In this document: positions 1 through 44,901 of the stretch, in pieces
Position numbering within the stretch: the first letter of the stretch is position 1
How the letters are laid out: each line of letters starts with the position of its first letter
DNA from: an uncultured delta proteobacterium
Lineage (GTDB): Bacteria > Myxococcota_A > Polyangia > Haliangiales > Haliangiaceae
Length of the DNA: 46,327 bases
NCBI GenBank assembly: GCA_900696455.1
Contig: CAADGB010000361.1
Span: 1 to 46,327, forward strand
Direction: 5' to 3'
Translations under genes and position numbers: made by a program
Notes under the pieces: generated by a model
Databases searched by the model: none
What the model saw: the letters and a program-made list of their open reading frames with translations, nothing else
What the model was told of the DNA's origin: nothing

Positions 1-125
1 CGGTCGGAGATGGCGGGAAACGAACGGCGAGCTGCATCTCTCCGGTCGGCCTGAGCTCTTCACCGACCGCGGTCGGAGATGGCGGGAAACGAACGGCGAG
101 CTGCATCTCTCCGGTCGGCCTGAGC
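1..125. repeat. 56-bp direct repeat, two copies, period 69
   Basis: The unit at 1-56 recurs without change at 70-125, separated by 13 bp. The left copy starts at the window edge, so the array may continue outside. Each unit holds the 10-mer ACGAACGGCG (20-29 and 89-98), whose reverse complement appears in the next repeat family. I see no credible gene in this stretch. Confidence 0.9.
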
Positions 126-140
126 CGCCCGAGCGTCAGC

Positions 141-352
141 GAGGGCGTGTCGAAGGCCGACAAGCCGCGGCCCTCGCGCGAGTGTTGTCGGGCGCTTGCC
201 GGCGCCGTTCGTTAGGAGCCGGCCGAGCGAGCGCGAGGGCGTGTCGAAGGCCGACAAGCCGCGGCCGTCGCGCGAGCGATGTCGGGCGCTTGCCGGCGCC
301 GTTCGTTAGGAGCCGCCCGAGCGAGCGCGAGGGCGTGTCGAAGGCCGACAGC
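141..352. repeat. 94-bp tandem repeat, about 2.3 copies
   Basis: Units begin at 141, 235 and 329 with GAGGGCGTGTCGAAGGCCGA. The first two units are about 94 bp with a few substitutions; the third is cut short near 352, just before the stop of the membrane protein gene at 369. Each full unit contains CGCCGTTCGT (203-212 and 297-306), the inverse of the 10-mer in the 56-bp repeat. The first 368 bp thus hold only repeats and no supported gene. Confidence 0.85.
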
Positions 353-368
353 CGACAGCCGACGCGCC

Positions 369-968
<600 letters not shown>

Positions 969-3863: not shown

Positions 3864-4790
3864 TCAGTTGGTGCGGAACGACACCGTCAAAAGATCGGTG
3901 CGGATGTCGTTGTCGACGTGGATGGCGCGGGCGCGGGCGCGCTCGTCGGGAGAGAGCGCCGACCAGGTGGCGTCGAAGCGCGCCAGGCGGTCGGTGAGCT
4001 GGGCGCCGTCGGTCGCGCCGAGGCGGACGGCGACCGCGCTGTCGTAGGTGAAGACGGTGGCGCCGCGGCGGTCGACGGCGACCTCGCCGACCGCGGGCCG
4101 GCCATCGGCGGCGCCGTCGGTCCACGCCGCCAGCACCTCGAGGCCGCGCCGGACCTGGGCCGCGGCCTCGTCGGGGGCGCTGGCGTAGAGCTCGCGGGGG
4201 ACGCCGCTCACCACCGGCAGGCCGGCGCCCTCGCCGCGGGCGAGGTCGGCGCGCTTGAAGGGGCGGCCGCTGGCGTCGACCAGGTAGAGCTCGCCGGCGG
4301 CGACCACCGCGGCTGGGGTCCGCTCGCGCAGCTCGACGACGACGCGCTGGGGCAGCTCGCGGCGGACGTCGACCGCGGCGATCCACGGCAGGGCGGCCAG
4401 GGTCGACTCGGCGAGGCCGATCGGGGCGCGGAAGATGTTGTCGCCGCGCGAGAACGGCAGGAGCGCGCGGACCTCGTCGGCGGTGCGCACGGTCGAGCCC
4501 CGGACCTCGACGTCGGCCACCGCGAAGCGGCGCGAGGTGGTCAGGAAGTCGTGACCGAGGGTCAGGCCGGCGCCGACCGCCGCCAGGATCGCGGTGGTGG
4601 CCAGGGCCGGGGCGGCGCGACGGACCGCGCGGCCGCAGGCGTCGAGCGCCTCGCGCGGCCGGGGCAGCCGCGCCACCAGCGGGCTGGTCCGACGCCGGTT
4701 CGGGCGCAGCACCAGCCGCGAGACGCGCGGGATGCGGTCCGGCAGCGCGGCACGGGGCGGCGTTCCCCTCGACGACCGGGATCGGTCCAT
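3864..4790 (-). CDS. ftsQ: Cell division protein FtsQ/DivIB
   Basis: Bitopic divisome protein linking FtsL/FtsB to the septal synthase. The 308-aa product has a long basic cytoplasmic N-terminus, one transmembrane segment (around ALATTAILAAVGAGLTLG), a POTRA domain beginning at FAVADVEVRGSTVRTADEV, and the FtsQ beta domain. ATG 4790 was chosen because a -10-like TATTTC ends 7 nt upstream; GTG 4808 would add six residues. No Shine-Dalgarno is obvious, consistent with a leaderless or very short leader. Gene position before ftsA and ftsZ supports the call. Confidence 0.92.
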   Translation of the reverse strand: MDRSRSSRGTPPRAALPDRIPRVSRLVLRPNRRRTSPLVARLPRPREALDACGRAVRRAAPALATTAILAAVGAGLTLGHDFLTTSRRFAVADVEVRGSTVRTADEVRALLPFSRGDNIFRAPIGLAESTLAALPWIAAVDVRRELPQRVVVELRERTPAAVVAAGELYLVDASGRPFKRADLARGEGAGLPVVSGVPRELYASAPDEAAAQVRRGLEVLAAWTDGAADGRPAVGEVAVDRRGATVFTYDSAVAVRLGATDGAQLTDRLARFDATWSALSPDERARARAIHVDNDIRTDLLTVSFRTN

Positions 4791-5350: not shown

Positions 5351-6958
5351 GTGGGAGCCTCGAGCGAGACCGCCCTGCCGCCCGGCGGACCCGCGTCCGC
5401 GGCCGGGCCGGCGTCCGAGCTCGAGGCGGTCATCGACGGCCGCTACCGCCTGGTCGAGCAGATCGGGGTGGGCGGCATGGGCACCGTCTACCGCGCCGAG
5501 CACGTCGGCATGGGCCGCGTGGTCGCGGTCAAGCTCCTGCGGCCGGAGCTGGGCGGCAAGGCCGACGCCGTCGAGCGCTTCACCCGCGAGGCCCAGGCCT
5601 CGGCCCGGGTCAGCCACAAGAACATCGTCGCCGTCAGCGACTTCGGCGTGCGCGATGACGGCACGCTCTACCTGGTGATGGAGTACCTGCGCGGCGAGTC
5701 GCTGCGCGAGCGGCTCGATCGCCGCGGGCGCCTGCCGTGGATGCAGGCGGTCGGCATCGCCCGCCACGTCGCCCGCGGCCTCGCCCACGCCCACGCCCAG
5801 GGCGTGGTCCACCGCGACATCAAGCCCGAGAACATCTTCCTGGTCGAGGACGACGACGACCCGGAGTTCGCCAAGATCCTCGACTTCGGCATCGCCCGCT
5901 CGCTCGAGGACGACGACGCGCGCGTCACCCAGGCCGGCTTCGTCGTCGGTACCCCGGCCTACCTGTCGCCGGAGCAGGCGCTGGGCGGCGCCGTCGATCA
6001 CCGCTGCGACGTCTACTCGCTGTGCATCGTGCTCTACGAGATGCTGTGCGGGCGCACGCCGTTCGGCGACCGGCCGCCGGTGGCGATGCTGACCGCCCAC
6101 GCCGTGGTCGAGGTCCCGGCGATGGCCGAGGTCGCGCCCGACGCCGACGTGCCGCCCGAGGTCGAGGCCCTGGTGCGGCGCGGGCTGGCCAAGGAGCGCG
6201 ACCAGCGTCAGCCCGACGCCGACACCCTGACCGCCGAGCTCGACCTCGTCCGCGGCCACACCGATCCCGGCCTCGCGCTCGGGCGCTCGTCGCCAGGGCA
6301 CGTCGTGCCGCGGGTCTCGACCGGCCTGCCGGTGGCGTACGCGGCGACCCCGCCGCCGGGCGGGCTCGTGACCCCGCCGCCGGGCGGGCCGGGCGCGCTG
6401 GCGACCCCGCCGCCGGGCGGGCTGGCGGCCGTGGCCAGCCCCGGGGCGGCGCCGGCGCCGAGCGGTTTCGGCGGCTGGCTGGTCGAGAGCTTCCCCCGCC
6501 TGCGCGAGCGCGCGTTCGTCCTGCGCTGGCTGAAGCTCGGCGTCGGCGGCCTGGTGCTGGTCGGCGTCCTGGTCGCGATCATCACCTCGACCAACCCCGA
6601 CGGCGCGAGCCCGCGCGCGCCGGGCGCGGCCCCGGGATCGGGCGTCGGGTCCGCGGTCACGCCGGCCCTGCCCCCGCGCATGCCCGACCTGGTGCCCAAC
6701 CCGGCGATCAGCGCGGCCAGCCGCGACGAGCGCCTCAAGGCCGCGCTCCACGATCTCGACAAGGGCAAGACCTGCGAGGAGCGCAAGGCCGCGGTCGCCC
6801 GCCTGCGCGACCTCGGCGACGCGCGCGCGGTCCCGGCGCTCAAGCGGGCGCGCTACCGCATGCGCGGCGGCGTGCTCGGCGTCGGCGACAGCAACACCAA
6901 CCGCTGCCTCAAGGCCGACGCCGAGGCGGCGCTGGCCGAGCTCGGCGCGCCGCCCTGA
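5351..6958 (+). CDS. Membrane-anchored Hanks-type Ser/Thr protein kinase
   Basis: 535 aa. The N-terminal kinase domain (about residues 31-300) has the glycine loop IGVGGMGTVY, the ATP-binding Lys61 (VAVK), the catalytic loop HRDIKPEN (154-161), DFG at 178-180 and the GTPAYLSPEQ activation segment, so it should be active. A Pro/Gly linker follows with three TPPPGG repeats, then one transmembrane helix (about 397-414) and a roughly 110-residue outer domain with two short helical repeats (DKGKTCEERKAAVARLRDLG) that resemble HEAT units. It lies between ftsQ and ddl on the opposite strand. A link to wall-synthesis control is inferred from position. The stop TGA is supplied by a dispersed repeat. 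Confidence 0.93.
   Translation: MGASSETALPPGGPASAAGPASELEAVIDGRYRLVEQIGVGGMGTVYRAEHVGMGRVVAVKLLRPELGGKADAVERFTREAQASARVSHKNIVAVSDFGVRDDGTLYLVMEYLRGESLRERLDRRGRLPWMQAVGIARHVARGLAHAHAQGVVHRDIKPENIFLVEDDDDPEFAKILDFGIARSLEDDDARVTQAGFVVGTPAYLSPEQALGGAVDHRCDVYSLCIVLYEMLCGRTPFGDRPPVAMLTAHAVVEVPAMAEVAPDADVPPEVEALVRRGLAKERDQRQPDADTLTAELDLVRGHTDPGLALGRSSPGHVVPRVSTGLPVAYAATPPPGGLVTPPPGGPGALATPPPGGLAAVASPGAAPAPSGFGGWLVESFPRLRERAFVLRWLKLGVGGLVLVGVLVAIITSTNPDGASPRAPGAAPGSGVGSAVTPALPPRMPDLVPNPAISAASRDERLKAALHDLDKGKTCEERKAAVARLRDLGDARAVPALKRARYRMRGGVLGVGDSNTNRCLKADAEAALAELGAPP
6346..6424 (+). repeat. In-frame TPPPGG minisatellite in kinase linker
   Basis: Three copies of a GC-rich unit, each encoding TPPPGG, within the linker of the kinase at 5351. 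Copy-number change would keep the frame and alter only linker length. Confidence 0.7.
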
Positions 6959-7169
6959 GCCGAGCGCAGCGAGGCGGCTCTGGTCCGGATGAGATCGGAC
7001 GAGCCCGTCAGCGGGCGAGGTCGATCGATCGAAGGAGAGCCTGGCATCGATTCGATGACAGGCTCTGAGCCGAGGCGCAGCCGAGGCGCTCGGCTCCGAC
7101 TCGGGTCGGCACCGGCGTCCTCGCCGGGACCGACCGATCGACCAGAGCGTGGGGTTCCGTCACACGCTC
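6956..7169 (+). repeat. Dispersed multi-hairpin element, copy A
   Basis: A 214-bp element beginning with the TGA stop of the kinase gene. The reverse complement of 44268-44484 (copy C) is nearly the same: the first 118 bp are identical and the rest differs by a few substitutions and 3 bp. A third, truncated copy is at 22716-22816. It is a chain of inverted repeats: GAGCCG/CGGCTC, GTCCG/CGGAC, GCCCG/CGGGC, GAGCCTG/CAGGCTC, CCGAC/GTCGG, CCGGCG/CGCCGG, and a terminal GAGCGTG-type stem ending in CACACGCTC. It has no open reading frame of its own. Confidence 0.9.
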
Positions 7170-7183
7170 CCGAGCGCGAAAGC

Positions 7184-22681: not shown

Positions 22682-22832
22682 GCGTTCGCGGGCCCCGCGC
22701 GTTCGCGGGCCCCGCGCCGAGGTGCAGCCGAGGCGATCTGCTCCGACTCAGATCGGCACCGGCGTCCTCGCCGGGACCGACCGATCGATCAGCGCGTGTG
22801 ATTCCTTCACACGCTCCGCGCGTTCGCGGGCC
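22682..22832. repeat. 17-bp direct repeats flanking the truncated element
   Basis: GCGTTCGCGGGCCCCGC occurs in tandem at 22682-22698 and 22699-22715. Its first 13 bp occur again at 22820-22832, on the other side of element copy B. The element therefore looks inserted into a small repeat array. Confidence 0.85.
22716..22816 (+). repeat. Dispersed multi-hairpin element, truncated copy B
   Basis: About 101 bp matching the right half of copies A (6956-7169) and C (44268-44484): CCGA/TCGG hairpin, CCGGCG/CGCCGG hairpin and the terminal GCGTGTGA/TCACACGC hairpin. The left ~112 bp with the first hairpins are absent. It lies in the 214-bp gap between the two lipoprotein genes; apart from the repeats nothing else is seen in that gap. 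Confidence 0.88.
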
Positions 22833-44240: not shown

Positions 44241-44267
44241 CCGCGCGTCGGGTGCGCGTGACGGGTC

Positions 44268-44484
44268 GAGCGTGTGAGGGAATCACACGCTCTGGTCGAT
44301 CGGTCGGTCCCGGCGAGGACGCCGGTGCCGACCTGAGTCGGACCAGATCGCCTCGGCGGCTGCGCTTCGGCTCAGAGCCTGTCATCGAATCGATGCCAGG
44401 CTCTCCTTCGATCGATCGACCTCGCCCGCTGACGGGCTCGTCCGATCTCATCCGGACCAGAGCCGCCTCGCTGCGCTCGGCTCA
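44268..44484 (-). repeat. Dispersed multi-hairpin element, copy C
   Basis: A 217-bp copy in inverse orientation to copies A and B. Read on the minus strand it begins with the TGA stop codon of the gene at 44482-44901, exactly as copy A begins with the kinase stop. The first 118 bp are identical to copy A. The closing hairpin GAGCGTGTGA/TCACACGCTC has a perfect 10-bp stem here. It lies between two convergent genes. Confidence 0.9.
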
Positions 44485-44901
44485 GGCCTGGGCCGGCGCC
44501 CGCAGCGCCCACGGCTCGCCGGCGGCGGGGTCGAGGCGGCCCTGGCGCGCGAGCTGCTCGCGGAGCTGGGCGGTGAACTCGTCGAAGCGATCGAGGCTGA
44601 TCCGGTGGCGGGTGCCATCGCTCATGGTCACGTCGAGGATGTTCTTGTTGAAGCCGTGCTTGCCGCGCGCCACCGCCGCGATGCGGACGAGCTCGAGGTC
44701 GAGGGCGCGCGTGCCCGCCGCGTAGCGCGACAGCAGCATGCCGAGCGCGCCGAACAGCAGGAACAGCGTGCTCTTCTGGTAGTAGACGACGCGCTGCGGG
44801 GTCAGCTCGAAGCGGCCGAGCTGCATGCGCAGCTTGCTCTTGAACAGGCCGCCGTGGGTGGTGGCGAGGACGGGCTCGGTGGCGGTGAGGGCGTGGGACA
44901 T
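44482..44901 (-). CDS. Small membrane-associated PH/GRAM-like protein
   Basis: 139 aa. ATG 44901 has a good Shine-Dalgarno (AGGAGAACC). The pattern KSKLRMQLGRFELTPQRVVYYQKS, one hydrophobic segment (LFLLFGALGMLLSRY), then LELVRIAAVARGKHGFNKNILDVTMSDG resembles bacterial PH/GRAM-like domains interrupted by a membrane hairpin. No proven function. Its stop codon belongs to the dispersed repeat, so the original C-terminus may have been changed by the insertion. Confidence 0.7.
   Translation of the reverse strand: MSHALTATEPVLATTHGGLFKSKLRMQLGRFELTPQRVVYYQKSTLFLLFGALGMLLSRYAAGTRALDLELVRIAAVARGKHGFNKNILDVTMSDGTRHRISLDRFDEFTAQLREQLARQGRLDPAAGEPWALRAPAQA

Follow-up and report, generated by a model that had tools for sequence, protein, structure and literature searches.

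The window, the whole 46,327-nt stretch of DNA analysed here, makes up contig C361 of a myxobacterium-like draft genome (7.98 Mb in 554 contigs), and it carries copies A, B and C of a dispersed repeat. On the plus strand, a gene for a Ser/Thr protein kinase of 535 aa (5351..6958; Pkinase, E=1e-50) forms a coding-like open frame up to its in-frame TGA (6956-6958). This TGA serves copy A (6959-7169, plus strand) as its left target triplet, and the copy begins directly after it. Copy A is made up of an alpha body (6959..7065), with 5', central and 3' hairpins of which the last ends in CAGGCTC, a junction TGA (7066..7068) and a beta body (7069..7169). A TGA at this junction is what we would expect if alpha had entered a stop codon that already carried beta. 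The triplet to the right of copy A is CCG (7170-7172), and a duplicated TGA is not visible there. Relatives of the kinase end at nearly the same place and lack the element.

On the minus strand, a small membrane-protein-like gene of 139 aa (44482..44901), for which we obtained no Pfam match, likewise ends in a TGA (44484-44482), which copy C has as its left target triplet. The copy, whose coordinates in the preliminary description were exact, follows this stop directly (44268-44481) and comprises an alpha body (44375..44481), a junction TGA (44372..44374) and a beta body (44268..44371), with the minus-strand triplet GAC past the outer end of beta (44265-44267). Orthologues of the 139-aa gene stop at the same place, with the ends ...APASA or ...APAQA. 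Copies A and C both read C, TGA and then GCCGAGCGCAGCGAGGC, so that the element's 5' end sits at the stop in both. This confirms the initial observation that the in-frame stops of two unrelated genes adjoin the repeat in the same orientation.

Copy B is the exception to the stop rule. It is a solo beta (22716..22816, plus strand) lying between 17-bp tandem repeats (GCGTTCGCGGGCCCCGC), and its left target triplet is CGC (22713..22715, plus strand), no stop codon. The filled site reads ...GGGCCCCGC, the element and then CGCGCGTTCGCGG, and the adjacent repeat junction reads ...GGGCCCCGCGCGTTCGCGG. Around the point of insertion, the empty site at the neighbouring unit junction is ...CCCCGC followed by GCGTTC..., and the filled site is ...CCCCGC, the element and CGCGCGTTC.... 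In this one readable empty site, the comparison of filled and empty sequence shows that CGC was duplicated, the right-hand CGC (22817..22819, plus strand) completing a 3-bp target-site duplication.

Modules, hairpins and flanking triplets of the repeat family

Querying the window's genome with the full repeat and with each half of it identified about 70 loci, which were retrieved with flanks of up to 5 kb. Two modules belong to one family, alpha of ~110 nt (a 107-nt body after the triplet) and beta of ~105 nt (a ~101-nt body), with module bodies spanning 98-107 bp and containing no ORF; a beta variant has GGCGAGCGAAGCGAGCC as its 5' end. The modules are arranged as solo alpha, solo beta, alpha-beta or tandem alpha-alpha-alpha, with TGA, or sometimes CGA, TGC or AGA, as the junction triplet. 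Alpha lies 5' of beta in at least 16 composites, and the reverse order did not occur. Several contigs break off within alpha, which is therefore under-counted in the assembly, and one copy is seen on two contig ends (L012 and L042). A single fixed alpha-beta composite was considered and rejected, since the beta units behind alpha are interspersed with solo betas in the tree. A comparison of the window with Rfam 15 gave no match at gathering score.

While sequence varies among alpha, beta, the beta variant and the copies of other genera, the hairpins persist. A shared 5' hairpin, GCC-GA-(G)GC-GNA-GC(C)-GA-GGC, stands directly behind the triplet and shows the two-sided changes GGC/GCC, CC/GG, AC/GT and GA/TC, with GGC/GCC in beta. 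The first hairpin as originally proposed, GAGCCG/CGGCTC, is present in alpha, but the one shared by modules and genera differs from it and starts right after the TGA. A central hairpin with a TCNN loop is formed by CCGGCG/CGCCGG, CCGTCG/CGACGG, TGCGCG/CGCGCG or GCCCG/CGGGC, the word CGATCGA is conserved, and a 3' hairpin closes at the right boundary (GAG..CTC, GCG..CGC). Paired changes are found in the 5', central and 3' hairpins, as read with hand-written patterns and no formal covariation test. Most modules fold strongly as RNA and also as single-strand DNA, the latter with z between -3.5 and -5.3. In the copies read, no T run indicative of an intrinsic terminator was seen, the 3' hairpin being followed by TGA/CGA-type triplets and GC-rich DNA.

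The left triplet is target DNA and behaves as a 3-bp target-site duplication. Copies away from stops carry equal triplets on the left and right (GGA/GGA, TGC/TGC, CGA/CGA, CGC/CGC), some other non-TGA copies carry unequal ones (CGA/CGG, GGA/CGA), and unequal pairs also occur in another genus (ATC/TGC, CTC/TGC, CCA/TGA). About half of the copies at stops have TGA as their right triplet, and the others have mainly CGA, TGC or CGC; these are the GC-ward derivatives of TGA to be expected from a duplication decaying in a GC-rich genome, with only its left copy under selection. Neither TAG nor TAA was found as the right triplet among the copies read.

Given copy B's empty site and these matching triplets, a target-site duplication of the MITE type is present, although it is not readable in every copy. 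Bacterial MITEs such as Correia/NEMIS, RUP and YPAL/RU-2 are the nearest known elements in size and in duplication, being <200 bp, non-coding and hairpin-forming, and bacterial YPAL elements adjoin genes and may affect upstream transcripts (PMC2229807). In contrast to MITEs, the element is GC-rich, is base-exact on stops and is without TA ends or long terminal inverted repeats, its ends sharing at most GAGCC/GGCTC with target bases included. We found no parent transposon for it, short of a systematic IS search.

The nearest hairpin design is that of the REP/BIME sequences mobilized with RAYTs, dispersed extragenic palindromes with a hairpin behind a short fixed head and with composite arrays (PMC2817692). 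The element has composite arrays too, and behind its short head lies a GCGNAGC core that is also found in enterobacterial REPs (PMC2817692). An HUH (Y1) enzyme might read the 5' hairpin and cut beside the TGA head, in which case the right-hand TGA would be the element's own cleavage site and no duplication would take place. The position of the hairpin right behind the triplet, the strong folding of single-strand DNA and the abundance of Y1 genes in two relatives are consistent with such a route, yet we consider it unlikely. REPs carry the head GT(A/G)G, whereas the head here is the TGA of the target, and the units are ~105 nt long with three hairpins and one orientation. A conserved tetranucleotide head such as GTAG was not found, target-derived C-TGA or other triplets preceding the element instead. 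A search for RAYT/Y1 genes (PF01797) returned none flanked by the element or its hairpin among ten Y1 loci inspected here and in related genomes, which are a part of the relatives' Y1 copies, and the single Y1 hit in this genome has repeats of its own. Y1 enzymes make no target duplication, and the matching non-TGA triplets together with the empty site of copy B imply that one was made.

The sole Y1 hit of this genome lies at 1359-2180 of L196 (G000:C389) and is framed by inverted GGGGACAGGATCCGGG repeats (GGGGACAGGATCC flanks) that are unrelated to the element. Relatives have up to 31 Y1 hits.

Siting at in-frame TGA codons

We scored coding frames around the copies, in flanks of up to 5 kb, by a codon-usage measure whose training set was the long ORFs of this DNA. 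Among the scorable copies with a left TGA, 53 of 57 end a coding frame exactly at that TGA, always in the same orientation. An automatic gene caller supplied 50 of these stops and the frame score the other three (L023, L032 and L054); L036 was not scorable and is outside the 57. Four left-TGA copies do not end a coding frame (L028, L031, L050 and L057), of which L031 and L057 lie 9 and 2 nt beyond a gene stop according to the gene calls. Eight further copies have left triplets other than TGA; no gene was seen to be broken by any of these, several of which sit 12-40 nt beyond a stop. The host genes, judged by eye from their sequences, are unrelated and include those for TyrRS, SOD, MiaB, RlmN, phosphofructokinase, a MurJ-like flippase and nicotinamidase. 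At L045, each gene of a convergent pair has its own element.

As a null, we used the same 560 kb with the elements masked, in which C-TGA occurs at 178 stops, at 171 other sites outside genes and at 1305 sites inside genes. Stops therefore make up 51% of the C-TGA sites outside genes and 10.8% of all C-TGA sites. Counted conservatively, 50 of 59 copies at stops exceed both the outside-gene null (p=7e-8) and the null of all C-TGA sites (2e-39). The preliminary description had named copies at random distances from stop codons as evidence against its idea; this was checked across the genome, and such a scatter did not occur. The base before the TGA is also biased, being C at 47/50 element stops vs 178/324 other TGA stops (p=1e-8).

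Closer nulls take in only the C-TGA sites that lie in sense orientation downstream of a gene. The stop itself accounts for 75% of these sites (excess p=7e-4) and for 84% of those within 100 nt of the gene (excess p=0.07). The genome is 90% coding, and its stops are 84% TGA and 16% TAG, so most harmless C-TGA sites are stops; a C-TGA target word, combined with the elimination of harmful insertions, accounts for most of the siting. Less well predicted by sequence targeting and purging is the finding that alpha is never at the right-hand C-TGA of beta. The alpha-beta order suggests an extra preference for stops, with the qualification that the right TGA of beta is often decayed and that the left end of beta may itself attract alpha.

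Such a preference could arise if the machinery were guided to translation termination, for example through the mRNA or through a terminating ribosome or RF2 at UGA, and not to the C-TGA word. The 53/57 copies at stops against 51% in the outside-gene null would fit, as would the constant place of alpha on the stop side of beta although the right end of beta offers another C-TGA. Several off-target copies lie 2-40 nt from a stop, no site is a TAG although TAG makes up 16% of stops, and one copy in another genus is at TAA (L144). The null of 84% within 100 nt of genes, with its p=0.07, weighs against termination guidance, and the strong preference for C and the non-stop insertions indicate that DNA sequence is read. 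We know of no mechanism or protein that would sense stops in this manner, and we regard it as improbable. Insertion guided to stop codons as such, at UGA-specific termination sites and not to a DNA word, is to our knowledge established for no bacterial transposable element, and we consider it distinctly improbable here.

Alternatively, copies might have spread at random and been retained at stops, where a block of hairpins after the stop could help the gene by protecting the mRNA 3' end, by aiding termination or by insulating convergent genes. The element's invariable sense orientation at stops, the location of about half of the copies between convergent genes and the strong, stable hairpins would be in keeping with a benefit. 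Base-exact placement at TGA, however, is not attainable by benefit alone, a T-tract is absent behind the last hairpin and the host genes are unrelated, which makes this explanation a doubtful one.

A second, unrelated dispersed repeat, located at window positions 1-392 and also at L206-L225, consists of 69-bp tandem units (GAGCTCTTCACCGACCGCGGTCGGAGAT..GCGGGAAACGAACGGCGAGC..ATCTCTCCGGTCGGCCT) and has 98 matches in the genome, many of them at contig ends. Its arrays often start after C-TGA but seldom at a real stop. It served as a control for siting, with 1-2 of nine TGA-flanked array starts falling at a coding-frame stop, a control that is only partial since the TGA there is probably element sequence. 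Some 69-bp arrays have their start within a beta module or at its end (L018 around 5190; L224), which suggests that one of the two families inserted into the other.

Element-free orthologues and relatives in other genera

Orthologues of ten element-bearing genes were located and read in six genomes of the same genus, and the element was absent from every orthologue stop read. SOD ends ...NKNLG or ...SKNLG and TGA in three relatives, and here it reads ...TKNLG, TGA, beta and TGA, with the next gene on the far side conserved as a syntenic right flank. MiaB (...LFGEPA and TGA) and phosphofructokinase (...LSPRR and TGA) have identical ends in a relative. In the relatives, PheA, PncA, RlmN, the small membrane protein and the kinase terminate at the corresponding position or close to it, their stops being TGA, TAG or TAA.

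Compared with four relatives, each of which uses a TAG stop, TyrRS (L022, 9064) has one extra residue. TGA followed by alpha and the beta variant occupies the place where these relatives have TAG.

Because element-free orthologues end at or close to the same residue with ordinary stops, the protein ends have not been replaced. The preliminary description had entertained a portable stop plus 3'-end module, in which the TGA would come with the element and the old protein end would be lost. In its favour, TGA does nearly always precede the element at genes, and TyrRS and RlmN have TAG in relatives at the point where TGA and the element stand here. The idea can nevertheless scarcely hold. Element-free orthologues (SOD, MiaB, phosphofructokinase, PheA and others) stop at an identical or almost identical residue by a codon of their own, in many cases TGA; copies away from stops have other triplets, equal left and right; and the displaced TAG or TAA that the idea predicts to the right of the element was not found.

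Other genera of the family contain diverged forms of the element, giving it a spread over three genera; the pattern used to search the genome collection began after the triplet and did not include TGA. In the Myxococcales PRO3 MAG, from a second genus, a coding frame ends at the left TGA of 11/11 copies, one of these frames being weakly coding-like. The LakeFargette MAG 72_12, from a third genus, has about nine copies at an in-frame TGA and one at an apparent in-frame TAA, and its remaining copies have other triplets, a non-coding TGA or a position within arrays. Together with the 53/57 of the present genome, these counts support the earlier suggestion that the element targets stop codons. At the TAA copy (L144, pattern match 4162-4234, plus strand), either the insertion took place at TAA or a TGA later changed to TAA.

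Cousins of the element in three genomes of the same genus (L100-L105 and L115) mostly follow a left triplet other than TGA, CCA for example, and none was found at a stop in these three genomes. Target choice thus seems to differ between close species and to be able to change within a genus. One cousin, at 2001-2071 of L100 (G004; the same place as L140), appears to lie inside an rlmN-like coding sequence, a reading made by eye from the downstream translation GVVFQGMGEPMANLDRVLEA, and contrasts with the copies at stop codons.

Proposed mode of insertion and known repeat families

In our preferred reading, to which we give a probability of about 0.7, we are dealing with a mobile element that is non-autonomous and conserved in structure. 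Its target is three bases long, with a strong preference for TGA preceded by C, and duplication of these bases on insertion regenerates the stop. An enzyme acting in trans, presumably a transposase, would insert the element at C-TGA in one orientation by 3-bp staggered joining. The left copy of the duplicated TGA would stay in frame and leave the protein unchanged, and the element would come to stand at the head of the 3' untranslated region. Insertions inside genes or promoter spacers would mostly be lost, such that selection, more than sensing of stops, probably makes up most of the bias. Later insertions may enter the same stop and stack before older modules, and serial insertion of this kind could produce the alpha-beta and alpha-alpha-alpha arrays. 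We did not find the mobilising enzyme, and no transposase could be linked to the element.

In siting, the nearest known elements are the MIRUs (mycobacterial interspersed repetitive units), ~100-bp repeats that occur solo or in tandem, are apparently mobile and lie at gene junctions with minimal effect on host genes (PMC12548453). The present element touches the stop codon in the orientation of the gene in 53/57 copies. Overlap of MIRUs with stop codons was reportedly noted by Supply et al. in 1997. MIRUs are, however, described as start-codon inserters whose internal ORF is coupled to the following gene, whereas the element is without an ORF. From its right end to the next co-directional start there are 51-1737 nt, and 25/45 next genes are convergent, so the internal ORF overlapping the start of the neighbour that marks a MIRU is not found here. 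This likeness is one of description. Each of the MIRU, REP and MITE classes has a defining feature that the repeat fails to show, and we rate it as a new family. A search of the open-access literature returned no report of the family, nor of stop-codon-targeted elements beyond MIRUs.

The base-exact siting on stop codons across genera gives the family above-average interest. It offers an example of a 'safe harbour', in which duplication of the TGA at a stop lets an element enter a gene-dense genome with the protein unchanged, and its copies sit beside important genes such as those for TyrRS, MiaB and SOD. The family makes it testable how far the C-TGA word, as against recognition of real stops, guides insertion, and its base-exact, structure-conserved copies in several genera provide material for a hunt for the enzyme.
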